The notes under the pieces: generated by a model
Database searches by the model: none
What the model saw: only the letters and a program-made list of their open reading frames with translations
Told to the model about the DNA's origin: nothing
Shown here: piece after piece, positions 10,405 through 17,387 of the stretch
How the letters are laid out: the number at the start of each line of letters is the position of its first letter
How positions within the stretch are numbered: position 1 is the first letter of the stretch
Assembly (NCBI RefSeq): GCF_024218775.1
Contig: NZ_CP100404.1
Span: 2,232,001-2,296,000 of the forward strand
DNA length: 64,000 nucleotides
Source: Haloarcula marina
GTDB lineage: Archaea; Halobacteriota; Halobacteria; Halobacteriales; Haloarculaceae
Reading direction: 5' to 3'
Made by a program: the position numbers and the translations under genes

Positions 10405-10815
10405 ATGCCGTTCGAACTCCGTACTCATACCGCCGACATCGCCGTCGAAGCCACGGGGCCGACGCTCGGCGCGACGTTCGCCGCCGTCGCCGACGGCCTC
10501 GCCGCGGCGATGTGCGATGCGATACCCGACGACGGCGACCGGTTCGAAGTGACAGTCAGCGCCGAATCCCGCGAGGCGCTCCTGTTCGACTACCTCGACC
10601 GACTCATCTACGAGCGGGACGTTCGGAACGTCCTCCCGACGGACAACGAGGCCAGCGTCGAGGCGGGCGACGGCGACTGGCGCGTCGACGCCAGCGCCCG
10701 CGGCGTCCCGCTGTCTGCGGTGACTGCCCGGGAAATAAAGGCGGTCACGTACTCCGAGATGGCCGTAGGAGAGACCGAGAAGGGGTGGCGCGCCTACGTC
10801 GTCTTCGACGTCTAG
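10405..10815 (+). CDS. Archease, RtcB ligase cofactor
   Basis: A 136-residue archease. The N-terminal HTADIAVEA signature is at residues 7-15, and the C-terminal SEMAVGETEKGWRAYVVFDV-type ending carries the conserved acidic metal-binding tail. Archease activates the RNA ligase RtcB by promoting its guanylylation, and so supports tRNA exon ligation and RNA repair. RtcB is not in the window. The ATG at 10405 is chosen because the upstream in-frame extension reads through the halocyanin gene in another frame. Its stop overlaps the stop of the convergent membrane/zinc-ribbon gene by four bases. Confidence 0.93.
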   Translation: MPFELRTHTADIAVEATGPTLGATFAAVADGLAAAMCDAIPDDGDRFEVTVSAESREALLFDYLDRLIYERDVRNVLPTDNEASVEAGDGDWRVDASARGVPLSAVTAREIKAVTYSEMAVGETEKGWRAYVVFDV

Positions 10816-12065
10816 CCGTCCAGCCGTTCGCCGCAGTCCGGGCAGAACGTCGGCGTTCGGTCGGCGGGCAGTTCCGTGCCGCACTCGTCACAGGTGCGGT
10901 CCCCGGCGAATCCGGCCCGGTCGGGCGAGAAGACGGCCGTGTCCTCGAACGGGTCGTCCTCGCCCTCGTCCTCGCCCTCGTCCTCGCCCTTGTCGTCAGT
11001 GGACAGATCGTCGACGGCGGCCAGCGCGGTATCCGCTTCGGCGGCGTCCGCGGCGTGGCCCGGCGAGAACACTCGGGTACTCGAGTCGTCGTCCCCGGTT
11101 GTCCCATCCGGTGCCGGACCGTCCGACACCGCCGCGTCCTCGACTGCCCCCGTCGGCGCGTCGGTGGACTCGGCAACTGCATCGGCGTCGTGGGTCGCCG
11201 TGCTCTCGTCCCGCCCGCCTGTCGGCGGCCCCCCACCACCGGACGCGTGCGCCCCGGGCCGCATCGTCGGGAACCGCTGTCCGGCCCGACGAGTCGGGTT
11301 TTCGAGCGGTGCGCGGCGGCGGACGGCGGCCCCGGCGGCGGTCTGTGCAAGCAGGTAGCCGCTCGCCAGAACCGCCGGTACCGAGACGAGAGCCGGCAGC
11401 GCGATGCCGCTGTCGACCCCGGCCACGGTGAGGCCTATCGAGACAACACCCGAGACGCCGCTCGCCGTCGCGACTTCGGCGAACTGCTCGCTCAGTCCCG
11501 CCAGCGCGGTCGCGTGGACGAGCCACGCCGCACCCAGCGCGACGGCAGACACCCAGCGGACGGCGCCGAACAGACGGGGAACCGACAGCGCGTACACGCG
11601 GTAACCGTACGCGATAGTTCGAACGAGGAGGTGGACACTCGCCACCAGCGCGACGGCCGTGAGCGGTGCGGACCGACCGACCGTGAGCGATGCGACGAGA
11701 CAGCCGAGCATGACCAGCCCCGGCGGCGCGAGTAGTGTACTCGGGTGGTCGAGGCGATAGCGGGAGGCGAGGTTGCCGGTCTGGTTCAGAAACCGGCCGC
11801 CCGTGAGTCGGGACGCGACCAGCGCGGGGAGCACGAGCCACAGGACGACGGCCGCGGCCGCGAGGCCGGTCACCGCTTCGCCGCCGACGGTCGCGAGTGT
11901 ACCGTCGGCGAATCTCGGTGCGAACCGCCGCAGGCCGATGCCAGATGCGGCGACCCACGCGCCGTACGCCAGATAGCCGAGGCCGCCGCCGACGGCGACC
12001 CACCACTCGCTCCGCAACAGCGCGAGGGACCGTCGAAACTCCGAGCGTGGAAGGCGAGTCGACAT
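10812..12065 (-). CDS. Membrane protein with TxVFSP motifs and zinc ribbon
   Basis: A 417-residue protein, last gene of the VWA/kinase/phosphatase/FHA operon and 31 bases after the FHA gene. Residues 1-245 hold about six hydrophobic segments (near 22-42, 64-84, 112-128, 133-152, 168-188 and 205-240). A long acidic disordered region follows, then a C-terminal zinc ribbon (C392, C395, C408, C411). The linker has two copies of the same motif, STRVFSPG (T330) and DTAVFSPD (T376). Threonine before VF resembles the ETTSVF phospho-site of actinobacterial GarA, which FHA domains read. It may therefore be the kinase substrate and FHA anchor of the operon. The function itself is not known. Confidence 0.72.
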   Translation of the reverse strand: MSTRLPRSEFRRSLALLRSEWWVAVGGGLGYLAYGAWVAASGIGLRRFAPRFADGTLATVGGEAVTGLAAAAVVLWLVLPALVASRLTGGRFLNQTGNLASRYRLDHPSTLLAPPGLVMLGCLVASLTVGRSAPLTAVALVASVHLLVRTIAYGYRVYALSVPRLFGAVRWVSAVALGAAWLVHATALAGLSEQFAEVATASGVSGVVSIGLTVAGVDSGIALPALVSVPAVLASGYLLAQTAAGAAVRRRAPLENPTRRAGQRFPTMRPGAHASGGGGPPTGGRDESTATHDADAVAESTDAPTGAVEDAAVSDGPAPDGTTGDDDSSTRVFSPGHAADAAEADTALAAVDDLSTDDKGEDEGEDEGEDDPFEDTAVFSPDRAGFAGDRTCDECGTELPADRTPTFCPDCGERLDG

Positions 12066-12096
12066 GAGGGTGTAGTGGTGTGAAGGACCGCGCGAA

Positions 12097-13218
12097 TCAG
12101 GAGGTGTGGACGGTCAACGTCGCCACCCCGGACAGTTCGATTTCGTCGCCGGGGGCCACCGGTTCCCGGTCGCCCTTCTGGAGCATGCGCCCGCCGAGTC
12201 GGGTCGGGTTGTCGCCCAGGTCGACGAGGTAGAAACTGTCGGATTCGCGCACGAAGCGGACGTGTTCGCGGTGGATGCGGACCGCCTCGTCCTCGGGCCG
12301 TCCCGCGTCTGTCAGCGCCGCCCGGACTTCTCGTCCCACTGTGTCGCCGTCTCTAACCTCGATTTCACGCCCGCTCACCTCCAGCACCAGCGACTCGGGG
12401 ACCGATTCGTCGTTCGACGCGCGGAGCGCGTCGACGGCGTCTGTCTCGTCGTCCTCGGTGTCGCCCGAGCGATGGACTTCGAGGTCCTCGCCGCAGTTGA
12501 CGCAGAAACTGTCCGTCTCGTCTACGCCCGTCCCGCAACTCGGGCATTCCGTCAGCGGTTCGACGGGCGCGACATCCTGAACGTCGGCCCCGCAGTTCGC
12601 ACAGAAGTTGGCGTCGCCGTCGAGTTCGGTCCCGCAGTCCGGGCATTCGAGAGTGTCCGCGGCGTCTGCGTCTGCGCTGTCCTCGCCCGCCGAATCCCCC
12701 TCGTCGGGGCTCTCGACGCCTGTTTCCTCGGGCGGACTCGATGCCTCCGTGTCCGACTCGACGTCCGCAGACGGGTCGGCGGCTTCCGCATCTGCTCCGA
12801 CGGGGTCGGTGTCGCCCCCGTCCTCGGTGTCGAGGTCAACCGGGTCGACCGCTTCCGCGTCCGTCGCCGCGGCCTCCGTGTCGTCGGTCGTCGATTCCGT
12901 ACCGTCCGGTTCCTCGGCGACGCTCTCCTCGGAACTCGTCTCGTCGGCGTCTTCCGCCTCGCTGTCCGCTTCCGAATCGCCCCCGTCATCCGCCGCCAAC
13001 TCCTCGTCCGCCGACCGCTCGGTCCCCTGCGAGATGAGGTTCCCCTCGCTCTCTTCCTCGTCCGATTCGGAGTCCGCGTCCCCCGCGTCGGCTGCGTCGT
13101 CCGTGTACTGCCACTCGCCGCAGTCCGTGTTCGTACACCACCCGCCCGCTATCGCCGGGTCGAACGCTTCCCCGCAAATCGGGCACTCAACTGACTGTTC
13201 CGTGTTGGCGTCAGACAT
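12097..13218 (-). CDS. FHA-domain protein with three zinc ribbons
   Basis: A 373-residue protein. An N-terminal zinc ribbon (C12, C15, C28, C33) is followed by a very acidic disordered linker (about 38-185), two further zinc ribbons (CPDCG...CANCG and CPSCG...CVNCG, about 188-245) and a C-terminal FHA-like domain (about 275-373; IHREHVRF, VDLGDNPTRLGG, GDEIEL). FHA domains bind phospho-threonine peptides, so this is the likely reader of the kinase encoded two genes upstream. The ATG at 13218 is chosen because the longer upstream frame is arginine-rich and lies opposite the phosphatase gene. It is 49 bases after the PP2C gene in the same operon. Confidence 0.83.
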   Translation of the reverse strand: MSDANTEQSVECPICGEAFDPAIAGGWCTNTDCGEWQYTDDAADAGDADSESDEEESEGNLISQGTERSADEELAADDGGDSEADSEAEDADETSSEESVAEEPDGTESTTDDTEAAATDAEAVDPVDLDTEDGGDTDPVGADAEAADPSADVESDTEASSPPEETGVESPDEGDSAGEDSADADAADTLECPDCGTELDGDANFCANCGADVQDVAPVEPLTECPSCGTGVDETDSFCVNCGEDLEVHRSGDTEDDETDAVDALRASNDESVPESLVLEVSGREIEVRDGDTVGREVRAALTDAGRPEDEAVRIHREHVRFVRESDSFYLVDLGDNPTRLGGRMLQKGDREPVAPGDEIELSGVATLTVHTS

Positions 13219-13267
13219 TCTGGTTCGTAACGGGGTTTTGCGGGGAGTAAGAAAACAGTTACTGCCG

Positions 13268-14362
13268 TCATTCCTCGGTGAACATGACCGTCTCGCGGTC
13301 CGTGATATCGACAGCCGGGTCGACCGCGCGGACCGGTAAGCCCCCGTTAGTCGGCGTCGCCGGGAGCGTCGCATCGTCGAACAGCAAGACCGAGATGTTG
13401 TCTTTCCCACCTCGCTCGTTGGCGAGGGAGACGTACCGCTCGGCGGCCGCGTCGAGGTGGTCGGCGTCCAGCAACACGTCGCGGATCTCGTCGTCGGTGA
13501 CGACGGCGTCGAGAACGCGGTCGGCCGCCTCGTCGGATTTCCTCGACTCAACGTACGCCTCGTACAGATTCGGCGCATCGGTCTGGGCGTCGATGAGACC
13601 GTCGCTCGTAACCAGAACGGTGTCCTCCGCGAACAGTCTGACCGTCCGCGTGTCCACGTCGACGGTCGCTCGCTCGGCGTCCTCGTGGCCGGACCCGCCG
13701 AGAGCCCGGGTAATCTCGTTGCCGTTGGGGTGGACGTGCGCCTCGACGGCGTCGATTTCCCCGGCGTCTTCCCACTGTTGGACGACGGCGTGGTCTTTCG
13801 TCAGGCGGACGATTTCCTCGCGGGCGCTGTTGACCAGATAGGCGCGACTGTCGCCGACCCATCCGAGGTGGAGTTTGCCGTCGGCGTAGACGCCCGCGAC
13901 GACGGTGGTGTACGACTGGGTTCCCGACTCGCTCGCGTAACGGAGTATCTCGCGGTGAGTCTCGACGACGGCCTCTTCGATGGCTTGCTGTACGTCTTCC
14001 GGTCCGAGTGTCTCCGGCAGGACCCCGGCGTCGATGTCCAAGTCAAACGTGTCCGGATGGGTCCGAACCGCCCGAATCGCGACCGGCGCGAGTCGTTCCG
14101 CGAGGGCGGTGGTCGCGATGTACGAGGCCGCGTCGCCCGCGTCGTGGCCGCCCGCGCCGTCCGCGAGGACGAACGCGGCGGCCGAGCGGTTCGCGGGGCG
14201 GCCGTCCGCATCTTCACGTTCCTCTGATTCACTTGCCACCCGCGTCTGCCCCAGGTAGCCCTCCCGATGCCCCTCCTCGAAGACGGTGATAGAGACGCTG
14301 TCTTCGTTGATTCCCGCGCCGCGCTTCCGGTCGCCGATGTCGTAGTTGGTGCTGTATCGCAT
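13268..14362 (-). CDS. PP2C-family Ser/Thr phosphatase
   Basis: A 364-residue PPM/PP2C phosphatase. The metal-binding motifs are in family order: NEDS near residue 20, ADGAGGHDAGDAAS near 67, GWVGDSRAYL near 168, TSDGLID near 254 and a final DNISVLLFD near 325. It should remove phosphate from Ser or Thr residues, most simply those added by the kinase encoded two bases upstream, with which it is surely co-transcribed. The ADGAGGH in place of the usual ADGMGGH is a mild variation. Together with the kinase and the VWA protein it forms a TerY-P-like triad. The extra C-terminal ~30 residues after the last motif are unassigned. Confidence 0.93.
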   Translation of the reverse strand: MRYSTNYDIGDRKRGAGINEDSVSITVFEEGHREGYLGQTRVASESEEREDADGRPANRSAAAFVLADGAGGHDAGDAASYIATTALAERLAPVAIRAVRTHPDTFDLDIDAGVLPETLGPEDVQQAIEEAVVETHREILRYASESGTQSYTTVVAGVYADGKLHLGWVGDSRAYLVNSAREEIVRLTKDHAVVQQWEDAGEIDAVEAHVHPNGNEITRALGGSGHEDAERATVDVDTRTVRLFAEDTVLVTSDGLIDAQTDAPNLYEAYVESRKSDEAADRVLDAVVTDDEIRDVLLDADHLDAAAERYVSLANERGGKDNISVLLFDDATLPATPTNGGLPVRAVDPAVDITDRETVMFTEE

Positions 14363-14364
14363 GG

Positions 14365-15597
14365 TTACTCGGAGTGGAACTCGAACGTGACCCCGTAGGT
14401 GGGGTGGACCAGCGAGACGAGGTCGCCGTCGCGGAGGCGAATCGACTCCGGCGGGACGTTCCCGTGTCGGTCGGTCGGGTCCTCGCCCTCCCGCCGCAGT
14501 CGCTCCCGCCCCGTCTCACACAGGACGCGCTGCCACCCCGACCCCTTCTGGACGAACGTCCCGTTCAGGCTTCGGTCGACGAGGTACCAGTCGTCGCCCT
14601 TCGTGTCGAACTGGACCTGCACCGACGAGATGTACTCTCCCTGCGGGTCGTCGATGGTGATGGACGCGGGCGGCCCGCTTGCGCCCGCCCGGCCGATGGT
14701 GTCGCCGGGTTCGACCGCGAAAGTCTCGTCGGCCTGGATGTACCGGACCGAGGCCGTCGCCGGTGGCGTCGGGTCCTTCGCTTCCAGCACGTCCCGAAGG
14801 ACCGTCGCGTTCCGGTAGCGGTGGCGGTAGTCCGACTGCGTCGCCCGTTCGACGATTTCCGCGAGGTAGTCGTCGCAGTCGGCCCCGAAGTCGTGGGGGT
14901 TGACGCCGTCTTTCTTCGGGACGCTCCCTTTCAGCAGGAAGAGCAGGATTTTCCCGATGGAGTACACGTCCGACCACGGTCCCTGTCGCACGTCGCTCCG
15001 GCTTGCTTCGGCGACTTCGCGGGGCTTGAACGGGCCGAGAATGGTCGTGCCGCTGTTACCCGTCGACGGGTCGCCCGCCGCGTCGAACCCCGTCGCCGTG
15101 TTGAAGTCGATGAGCGTCGGCGTGATGTCGGGCGTGAGCATCACGTTCTCGGGTTTCAGGTCACGGTAGACGATTTCGTTCTCGTGGAGGAAGCCCATCG
15201 CGTCCGCGAGGTCGATGCCGATTTGCCGGACTCGCTCGGTGTCCTCTATCGGCCCGTGTTGCTCGATAACCTCGTCGAGTTCGATACCGCCCGCGACGAG
15301 TTCGACCACGAGAAACGGCGTGTCGCGCTCCTCGACGGTGTCGTACAGCGCCATCACGTTCTCGTGGCCGCCCGCCGCGGCGATGCGTTCGAGCGACTCG
15401 GCCTCCTTCTCGAAGTACTCCTCGATGATGCCAACGTCGTTGCGGGACTCGCTGTAGTTCGGGTGTTTCACCACCACGTCGCGGCCGGTCTGCCCGTCGA
15501 CCGCCCGGTAGGCCTTCGCGAACCCCCCCTGTCCGAGGAACTCTCCGAGTTCGTATCGACTGCCGATTACGTCGCCCGGTTCGGGTTCCCACGTCAT
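14365..15597 (-). CDS. Ser/Thr protein kinase with C-terminal FHA domain
   Basis: A 410-residue soluble kinase. The glycine loop is GQGGFAKAY at residues 22-30 and the catalytic lysine is K44 (VVVKHP). The catalytic loop YRDLKPENVML lies near 143-153. The magnesium motif is DFN (LIDFNTATGF, near 163) instead of DFG, which is unusual but keeps the aspartate. Residues about 285-405 form an FHA domain (GDTIGRAG, YISSVQVQF, VDRSLNGTFVQ), so the kinase can dock on phospho-threonine. There is no membrane segment. It lies between the VWA gene (53-base gap) and the PP2C gene (2-base gap). Activity is predicted, and substrates probably include operon partners. Confidence 0.93.
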   Translation of the reverse strand: MTWEPEPGDVIGSRYELGEFLGQGGFAKAYRAVDGQTGRDVVVKHPNYSESRNDVGIIEEYFEKEAESLERIAAAGGHENVMALYDTVEERDTPFLVVELVAGGIELDEVIEQHGPIEDTERVRQIGIDLADAMGFLHENEIVYRDLKPENVMLTPDITPTLIDFNTATGFDAAGDPSTGNSGTTILGPFKPREVAEASRSDVRQGPWSDVYSIGKILLFLLKGSVPKKDGVNPHDFGADCDDYLAEIVERATQSDYRHRYRNATVLRDVLEAKDPTPPATASVRYIQADETFAVEPGDTIGRAGASGPPASITIDDPQGEYISSVQVQFDTKGDDWYLVDRSLNGTFVQKGSGWQRVLCETGRERLRREGEDPTDRHGNVPPESIRLRDGDLVSLVHPTYGVTFEFHSE

Positions 15598-15650
15598 CGA
15601 TCAGGTCCCGTGACCGTCCCGCCCGCGGTGGTCGCCCGGTCGACCGTCGG

Positions 15651-16835
15651 TCACTTCTGGATACCCTCGTCGGTGACGATTTTCGTCGCATCGCTCTGTT
15701 CCTCGCGGCCGCCCTCCATCACCATCTCTGTCTGTCGTTCGGCCGATTTGACCGCCCGCGTGTCCGCGCCGTGAATCTGGGTCATCCGCTCGATTTGGGT
15801 CTGGGCCTCGGCGACGTTGCCCTTCCCCAGTTCCGTCTGGATGACCGTCTGCCGATGGTCGAGGTCGACTTCCTCGTTGTGCTCGCCCAGTTTCTCGGCG
15901 TCGTCGGTGTACTCGACGGCTATCTCGCCGGTCGCCGTCTCGCCGCTCGCGGTGAGCGTCACGTCCGCGAGCGTGACGGTTTCTCCGACTTCGTTCTGGG
16001 GTGCGTGAATCTTCAGGACGACGCGCTGTGTCTCGCGGTCCAGCAGGTCCGGAAGCTTCACCACCGCCGAGTTGTCCCGCCACCCCGGTCTGACCTGCTG
16101 TGTCTGCGGAAGCGCGCGGTACACCTCGCTCACCTCGACGCCGTCGGCCACGTCGAGTTCGAGTTGCGCGTCCGGCGCGACGACGGTTCCGGCCTCCTCG
16201 ACGGCTTCGCCGAAGAAGTCCTCGATGTCCCCGGGCGCGGCGAGGTGGGTCCACTCGCCGCGGGCCGTCGACCCCAGCGTGCGAATCGTCTCCTCGCGGT
16301 ACTCCTCGCCGATACCCGCCGACTTGATGCGGATACCCGCCTCGTCTATCTCCCGTGCGAGCGCCTCGAACTCCTCGGGACCGTTCGTGTTGTCCTTGCC
16401 ATCCGACAGCAGGAGTATCCGCCGGGCCGTGTTCCCGTCGTTGGGGAGGTGGTCGAGCGAGTCCGCGGCCACCGCGAGTCCGCTGTACATATCTGTGCCG
16501 CCGCCCGCCGCGATGTCGTCGAGGCAGTCCATCGCCTCGTCCCGAGTGATACCTCCCCATCGGGTCGCTTCGAGCGCGACAGTTACCTCGGTGTCGAAGG
16601 CGACGATGGAGAGGTAGTCGTCGTCCTCCAGCAACCCGAACACCCACTCGGCCCCCGCCCTCGCGCGCTCGATGTCGTCGCCCGCCATCGACCCGCTCGC
16701 GTCGATACACAGCGCGATTTGTCGGGTCGGCCGCGCCGTCTGTTGTCCCGGCTCGACCTCTATCTCGGCGGTGAGTTTCGCCCCCGACGCGGGGACGGAC
16801 GGCCGGTTAACGTCGGTCACGACGTTAGCTGTCAT
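15651..16835 (-). CDS. VWA-domain protein, TerY-like, first gene of signalling operon
   Basis: A 394-residue protein whose VWA domain (about 35-205) has an intact MIDAS: DASGSMAG near residue 45, GGGTDMYSG near 111 with the conserved Thr, and LLLSDGKDN near 143. A beta-rich domain follows (about 215-320), then a C-terminal helical segment rich in Q, E and T. There is no signal peptide, so it is cytoplasmic. VWA domains bind partners in a metal-dependent way. The order VWA-kinase-PP2C parallels the bacterial TerY-phosphorylation triad. A TATA-like box at 16861-16868 lies about 27 bases upstream of the ATG, indicating a leaderless or nearly leaderless operon mRNA. Confidence 0.87.
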   Translation of the reverse strand: MTANVVTDVNRPSVPASGAKLTAEIEVEPGQQTARPTRQIALCIDASGSMAGDDIERARAGAEWVFGLLEDDDYLSIVAFDTEVTVALEATRWGGITRDEAMDCLDDIAAGGGTDMYSGLAVAADSLDHLPNDGNTARRILLLSDGKDNTNGPEEFEALAREIDEAGIRIKSAGIGEEYREETIRTLGSTARGEWTHLAAPGDIEDFFGEAVEEAGTVVAPDAQLELDVADGVEVSEVYRALPQTQQVRPGWRDNSAVVKLPDLLDRETQRVVLKIHAPQNEVGETVTLADVTLTASGETATGEIAVEYTDDAEKLGEHNEEVDLDHRQTVIQTELGKGNVAEAQTQIERMTQIHGADTRAVKSAERQTEMVMEGGREEQSDATKIVTDEGIQK

Positions 16836-16860: not shown

Positions 16861-16868
16861 GTTATAAG
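16861..16868 (-). promoter_or_regulatory. Promoter of the VWA-kinase-PP2C-FHA operon
   Basis: The minus strand reads CTTATAAC, a haloarchaeal TATA-box match, centred about 29 bases before the VWA start codon at 16835. That spacing predicts transcription starting at or very near the ATG. The box is back-to-back with the NikR promoter. Confidence 0.6.
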
Positions 16869-16929
16869 TTTCCCCCGTCGCGGAACGAACGACCCGCCGT
16901 CGGTCGGTTCCACACTCATTCAATAATCC

Positions 16930-16958: not shown

Positions 16959-17387
16959 ATGACCGTCGTCAGTGTCTCCATGCCGGAGTCGCTACTGGAA
17001 CGCATCGACGAGTTCGCCGAGGAACACGGCTACACCGGCCGCAGCGAGATTATCCGCGAGGCCAGTCGGAACCTACTCGGCGAGTTCGAGGACAAGCGTC
17101 TGGAGGGGCGCGAACTGATGGGCATCGTCACCGTCCTCTTCGACTACGACACCACCGCCGTCGAGGAGAAGATGATGCACCTGCGCCACGAACACGAGGG
17201 ACTGGTCGCCTCGAACTTCCACAGTCACGTCGGCGAACACCGCTGTATGGAACTGTTCGTCTTAGAGGGCGACTTGGCGGAGATTTCGACCTTCGTCGGA
17301 AAGATTCGAGCGACGAAAGACACCCTCAACATCGACTACTCCGTGGTCCCCGTCGACGAGTTCGGGACGCTCACCGACGTCGAATAG
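16959..17387 (+). CDS. nikR: NikR-type nickel-responsive regulator
   Basis: A 142-residue CopG/ribbon-helix-helix regulator. The N-terminal ribbon-helix-helix ([19 protein letters not shown]) binds DNA, and the C-terminal ACT-like domain binds nickel. The four square-planar ligands of E. coli NikR (H76, H87, H89, C95) correspond here to H77, H88, H90 and C96 with identical spacing. Nickel-bound NikR normally represses nickel uptake genes, but none are in the window. The neighbouring divergent operon encodes the VWA/kinase system, which shares the intergenic region and may be a target; that is an inference. Confidence 0.9.

Follow-up and report, generated by a model that had tools for sequence, protein, structure and literature searches.

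The window analysed here is a 64,000-nucleotide stretch of the Haloarcula marina genome (contig NZ_CP100404.1, positions 2,232,001 to 2,296,000). Between its positions 10812 and 16835 lie five open reading frames on the minus strand, all starting with ATG, which encode in the order of transcription a von Willebrand factor A (vWA) protein, a Ser/Thr kinase with a forkhead-associated (FHA) domain, a PP2C phosphatase, a zinc-ribbon/FHA protein (protein 4, or reader) and a membrane/zinc-ribbon protein (protein 5). They are separated by 53, 2, 49 and 31 nt, as an initial annotation of this DNA had stated. That annotation proposed a write-read-erase circuit for phosphothreonine (pThr), akin to the TerY-phosphorylation triad of bacteria. 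ArnA and ArnB, named in the list below, belong to a Sulfolobus network discussed further on.

15651-16835, minus strand: vWA gene, 394 aa, ArnB architecture (a vWA domain splitting a beta-sandwich, followed by C-terminal helices and a flexible tail)
14365-15597, minus strand: kinase-FHA gene, 410 aa, PknB-like Ser/Thr kinase with C-terminal FHA domain
13268-14362, minus strand: PP2C gene, 364 aa, PP2C-type phosphatase with intact metal ligands
12097-13218, minus strand: zinc-ribbon/FHA gene (protein 4), 373 aa, ArnA-like layout (a ribbon at the N-terminus, then an acidic linker, two more ribbons and the FHA domain)
10812-12065, minus strand: membrane/zinc-ribbon gene (protein 5), 417 aa, about six transmembrane segments (6-TM), disordered acidic tail, C-terminal zinc ribbon

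Most of the domains named by the annotation scored above the Pfam cut-offs: VWA in the first protein (6e-15), Pkinase (1e-29) and C-terminal FHA (4.5e-7) in the second, PP2C_2 (2e-9) and PP2C (1e-7) in the third, and Zn_ribbon_3 and DZR in protein 4. Residues essential for function are kept across orthologue alignments. The metal ion-dependent adhesion site (MIDAS) of the vWA protein is intact and invariant (D45xSGS, T114, D145), as are K44, E65, D146, N151 and D164 of the kinase and the metal ligands of the phosphatase, which falls in the Stp1/PstP group. The zinc ribbon attributed to the membrane protein stayed below the Pfam cut-off; its four Cys are nevertheless invariant in orthologues.

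14365-14712, minus strand: FHA domain of the kinase, with canonical Arg303, Ser (in YIS) and Asn345-Gly-Thr
12097-12396, minus strand: FHA domain of protein 4, with Arg296 and Asn337 kept and His in place of the usual pThr-binding Ser (IHREH)
10833-10892, minus strand: C-terminal zinc ribbon of the membrane protein, with four invariant Cys

In the kinase FHA domain, the pThr-binding residues are conserved, R303 being invariant and the Ser and N345 present in at least 90% of the sequences. The FHA domain announced for protein 4 was recovered by other means than Pfam, which gave no match there. Profile-profile alignment related it to the kinase FHA domain (97%, E 5e-11), GarA and Rad53 FHA domains came near the top of its matches in the PDB (E about 1e-4), and an AlphaFold2 model (predicted local distance difference test, pLDDT, 94.9) matched FHA structures with a Foldseek E of 8e-6 and Z scores up to 13.3. 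The replacement of Ser by His is found in the window and in most of its close relatives, and the canonical residue is present in more distant ones (for instance L019 and L115). A six-frame search of the genome of the window with Pfam FHA returned no match, though hmmscan of the kinase protein passes the cut-off; since it missed a recognised domain, this search reflects a limit of sensitivity and is not evidence that FHA domains are absent. FHA proteins of haloarchaea may be under-annotated. A 2023 study of Saccharolobus islandicus ArnA states that within archaea they are conserved only in Crenarchaeota, with occasional occurrences elsewhere (PMC10470591).

The vWA protein led to the closest characterised system, the Sulfolobus ArnA/ArnB/ArnC/PP2A network, which the annotation did not name. 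ArnB was the top PDB match of the family profile (E 3.5e-21), and the predicted structure (pLDDT 90.8) superimposed on ArnB (8s05_A) with a Z score of 33.5 over 353 aligned residues, at a root mean square deviation of 3.1. The Z scores were 29.4 for the ArnB paralogue 5a8j and 37.0 for a bacterial structural-genomics protein, 4fx5. In all three cases the likeness covers the whole chain, beyond the vWA domain alone. A likeness between ArnB, vWA2 and a Catenulispora protein has been noted by Hoffmann et al. (PMC6509490). Some ArnB-like vWA genes (L124-L129 and L133) have no kinase or PP2C gene beside them, and a C-terminal Thr motif described below is mostly absent from them.

The layout of the operon thus has much of the Arn type. 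The vWA model shows the split beta-sandwich and C-terminal helical bundle demanded of an Arn member, protein 4 combines an N-terminal zinc finger with a C-terminal FHA domain as ArnA does, and a Hanks-type kinase and a phosphatase are encoded separately, as in the ArnA/ArnB/ArnC/ArnD/PP2A set. However, the ArnB_C domain (IPR040929) gave no match in the vWA protein in a Pfam search at E up to 1 and the phosphatase is a PP2C rather than a PP2A, so we do not class the operon as a member of Arn. It further differs in that kinase and phosphatase lie in the same operon, the kinase carries its own FHA domain and a 6-TM protein with a tail motif is added. The Arn network controls archaella and ups pili in Sulfolobales (PMC12852372, PMC10470591), and an Arn-like regulator with archaellum or pilus gene expression as its output would account for the ArnA- and ArnB-like proteins of an organism that does possess archaellin genes. 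We consider this output unlikely, as these genes lie about 1.8 Mb from the operon, the module is limited to a small part of the class (see below), and its components differ (PP2C, FHA domain on the kinase, membrane protein).

We searched 391 genomes of the Halobacteria with the family profiles. The kinase, the PP2C and the FHA domain of protein 4 were each detected in 52 genomes, and comparison of the three genome lists showed them to be identical; the vWA protein was found in all 52 and in 8 more. These 52 genomes represent 15 genera and 3 families, with a patchy distribution, two genera (g8 and g9) having members with and without the module; 24 of them belong to the genus of the window, of which no genome is among the listed non-matches. 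Co-occurrence across 52 genomes excludes chance. The core genes adjoin in nearly all module genomes, and in the fetched loci holding all four core families they follow a few gene orders; in one genome (G199) the reader gene lies about 70 kb from the rest. Identical genome lists and kept adjacency make it seem that the module is inherited or lost as a unit, a reading tempered by the non-independence of genomes within a genus. The proposal of a system, which would be undermined if the genes kept company only in close relatives, survives this comparison, and the part of the annotation that saw a complete write-read-erase circuit in the set is strengthened by it.

Among 30 loci of the window's type, the Haloarcula-like one, a simple gene caller recovered each of the five families in 22 to 29. 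No further flanking family occurred in more than 14 of these 30 loci, giving no additional member of the operon. In a second type the order is reader-vWA-kinase-PP2C, the membrane protein gene is divergent or nearby, and a second FHA kinase is frequent. The PP2C of this type has a C-terminal extension that is FHA-like by inspection and through weak cross-matches to the kinase profile, and in which Pfam detects no FHA domain. Such extensions read like FHA at L115:11215-14527, L119:8640-11582 and L019:8001-9770, again with none detected by Pfam; in L115 and L119 there is also a second FHA kinase, whose catalytic motifs are less canonical. In other PP2C orthologues (L007:8001-9365, L008:2940-4295 and L012:8001-9341), residue 41 is followed by an insertion of very roughly 80-110 residues.

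The label of TerY triad fared less well than that of circuit. The operon does have the same three enzyme classes as the triad, with vWA, PP2C and kinase genes side by side, and TerY-P has been described with activity against T7-like phages (PMC7699616), so that the operon might be a stress or anti-phage system of this kind that has further components. This is very unlikely. The vWA protein is, in the model, of the three-part ArnB type and not a stand-alone domain; the kinase bears an FHA domain where that of actinobacterial kinase/PP2C/vWA sets has a zinc ribbon and a beta-rich domain (PMC7159879), the ribbon here being on the reader; and TerD (PF02342), the sole Ter protein searched, was not found in the genome of the window while control genomes matched. 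Because the vWA and kinase architectures differ and TerD was not found, we do not class the operon as a TerY triad. It also includes a reader and a membrane protein beyond those of the triad, its surroundings show no recognised DNA-processing or defence genes, and its steady presence in the 24 genomes of the same genus is unlike that of a sporadic defence gene. PADLOC, which may hold no TerY-P model, gave no match for the vWA protein or the PP2C.

Another kinase, PP2C and FHA reader set is the PpkA/PppA/Fha pathway of type VI secretion systems (T6SS), in which, in Agrobacterium, Fha binds pThr14 of the membrane protein TssL (PMC3953482); the operon likewise has a membrane protein as proposed bearer of the pThr. 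A metagenome-assembled genome (L017, Halobacteriales archaeon QS_8_69_26) encodes two gp19-like tail-tube proteins (L017:248-2226) beside its vWA/kinase/PP2C/FHA core, which raised the idea that the module fires a contractile injection system. We rejected this idea on a class-wide count of gp19 tail-tube genes: they occur in 8 of the 52 module genomes versus 72 of the 339 without the module, hence no enrichment, and in the genome of the window there are none. Unlike the T6SS pathway, the operon has a vWA scaffold, no secretion-system genes and no statistical link to tail-tube genes. We regard such a role as extremely improbable.

What is new in this analysis is one motif kept in the otherwise unalignable tail of the 6-TM protein, together with similar Thr motifs ending the vWA and PP2C tails.

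11061-11081, minus strand: membrane protein tail motif STRVFSP, residues 329-335, proposed pThr tag
10923-10943, minus strand: second membrane protein tail motif DTAVFSP, residues 375-381, restricted to a Haloarcula-like branch
15669-15689, minus strand: vWA C-terminal tail motif ATKIVTD, residues 383-389, proposed pThr site, conserved in core-linked vWA proteins
13280-13300, minus strand: PP2C C-terminal motif DRETVMF, residues 355-361, proposed pThr site, T358 invariant in a 12-sequence alignment

Between the last transmembrane segment and the zinc ribbon, the tail of the membrane protein varies from 95 to 294 residues and cannot be aligned, yet it keeps T-R-V-[FY]-x-P. The pattern T-x-[VI]-[FY] was present in 41 of the 45 detected tails versus 1.2 expected by shuffling, an expectation that ignores the relatedness of the sequences. 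In the four detections lacking the motif the tail measures 16 to 58 residues, and these are probably different proteins. When 23 membrane proteins of the window's type were aligned, TRV.P were essentially the only tail columns conserved at 90% or more; among 14 of the second type they were TRI. The motif was first seen in the window's type and the second type was inspected afterwards, [DEQ]-T-R-I-[FY] being found in 6 of the 6 proteins looked at first. The membrane domains of both types are homologous (hhalign 98.9%, E 3e-17). The most constant residue of the motif is its Thr.

The vWA tails end in ATKIV[TD]D or TTVV[YF]D. A loose pattern, fitted after inspection of these tails, was found in 33 of 37 distinct ones versus 3.9 by shuffling, and in only 1 of 7 vWA proteins without the module. 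The PP2C of the window's type ends in D-R-[ED]-T-V, a pattern also fitted after inspection. Searching the genome of the window with a DNA pattern for T-x-V-F-[ST]-P gave 15 matches, of which those in likely genuine genes were two in the membrane protein and one in a UspA-like domain, so no further substrate was found; broader patterns would match mostly by chance.

We think it fairly probable that the five genes form a self-contained haloarchaeal phosphothreonine switch, in which the kinase writes, FHA domains read and the PP2C erases pThr tags on tails. The genes and their domains, the intact catalytic residues, the co-inheritance, the ArnB and FHA folds and the conservation of the tail motifs are observed; the steps that follow are inferred. 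The PknB-like kinase would phosphorylate Thr in the flexible tails of its partners. The proposed sites are T-R-[VI]-[FY] in the 6-TM protein and two C-terminal motifs, ATKIV[T/D]D of the vWA protein and D-R-E-T-V of the PP2C. The FHA domains of the kinase and of the reader would bind these tags, and phosphorylation would bring together kinase, reader and the ArnB-like vWA scaffold, with the membrane protein as the probable meeting place. Phosphate-independent contacts may be provided by the vWA MIDAS and the zinc ribbons, like those that the zinc finger of ArnA makes with ArnB. Removal of the phosphate by the PP2C would then dissolve the assembly. There are precedents in Sulfolobales: pThr on the C-terminal helical bundle of ArnB is bound by the FHA domain of ArnA, the zinc-finger contact being phosphate-independent (PMC12852372), and ArnA/B is dissociated by PP2A (PMC7472852). 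The binding of TssL pThr14 by Agrobacterium Fha, mentioned above, is a further precedent. A phosphorylated C-terminal region is the proposed FHA ligand in the Arn and the haloarchaeal system alike, although the haloarchaeal vWA motif lies after the helical bundle and not within it.

Several observations weigh against the switch, besides the relatedness ignored by shuffling of the membrane protein tails and the fitting of the vWA and PP2C patterns after inspection. The kinase family keeps YRD and DFN where HRD and DFG are usual. The vWA tail motif is absent from three divergent clusters (L121, L122 and L123), and the PP2C motif is missing at the C-terminus of the extended PP2Cs of the second type. 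The His at the usual pThr-binding Ser of protein 4 makes pThr binding by the reader uncertain. This last point would also suit an explanation in which the tail motif serves for docking, sorting or degradation and the operon acts by another route. We find this rather unlikely, given that Thr is the most constant residue of the motif and that a PknB-like kinase and a GarA-like FHA domain are encoded beside it. The GarA/OdhI motif is ETTSVF, which the T-x-V-F pattern of the tails recalls.

A more specific form of the switch is possible, and is put forward tentatively: a dedicated haloarchaeal pThr pathway to the 6-TM protein, in which T-x-[VI]-[FY] would be common to membrane tail, vWA and PP2C and read by two kinds of FHA domain, as an archaeal counterpart of PknB/GarA on an ArnAB-like scaffold. 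The resemblance to actinobacterial PknB/PstP/GarA lies in the kinase, whose family profile has PknB first among its PDB matches (2e-39), in GarA being among the best FHA matches, and in the type of motif. Unlike in that system, the motif (for GarA/OdhI given as ETTS in PMC5448819) is carried by separate proteins and not by the FHA protein itself, there is no PASTA domain, and a vWA protein and zinc ribbons are added. Uncharacterised bacterial clusters, in Oscillochloris (L020, Chloroflexota) and in Bacillota (L034), also have adjoining PP2C, vWA and zinc-ribbon/FHA genes, the vWA protein being homologous over its full length; in L034 kinase and PP2C are fused. In contrast to the haloarchaeal module, their zinc ribbon is on the PP2C or the kinase and their vWA ends in [AG]TR[RK]LTQ, and no tail T-x-[VI]-[FY] was found in these two clusters.

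The annotation knew of no experimental description of this system in haloarchaea, and our search of the literature, mostly without subscription papers, found none either. A general role of FHA and vWA proteins in archaeal signalling was foreseen by Makarova et al. (PMC4858521). Most of what is known of Ser/Thr signalling in archaea comes from Sulfolobales, whose kinases, phosphatase, ArnA and ArnB are in part scattered. Here ArnAB-like modules reach haloarchaea, with homologous clusters in bacteria, and a complete module stands in a single operon of several haloarchaeal families, some of them probably genetically tractable, with specific Thr predicted as sites. Stand-alone kinase/phosphatase/reader circuits in archaea, the role of an ArnB-type vWA scaffold and signalling to the membrane could all be tested with this operon.

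A putative promoter element was read from the sequence upstream of the vWA gene, and the position of its TATA-like part would fit a leaderless haloarchaeal transcript.

16861-16873, minus strand: putative promoter element GAAACTTATAA, its TATA beginning 32 nt ahead of the vWA ATG

A NikR-like regulator (16959-17387) lies divergently, 123 nt upstream of the operon, and is found beside it in 8 of the 30 loci of the window's type. Divergent modules have other neighbours. HEAT-repeat proteins, of which some bear a zinc ribbon at the C-terminus, are encoded at L017:9465-16647, L018:9003-13985 and L131:3120-4514, and the same neighbourhoods include very large membrane HEAT-repeat proteins; the HEAT-repeat proteins are possible effectors. 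In further divergent clusters (L130:599-3642, L131:17168-18739 and L121:8503-11991) there are PQQ beta-propeller/zinc-ribbon proteins, a protein with a CAP domain and another weak FHA protein.

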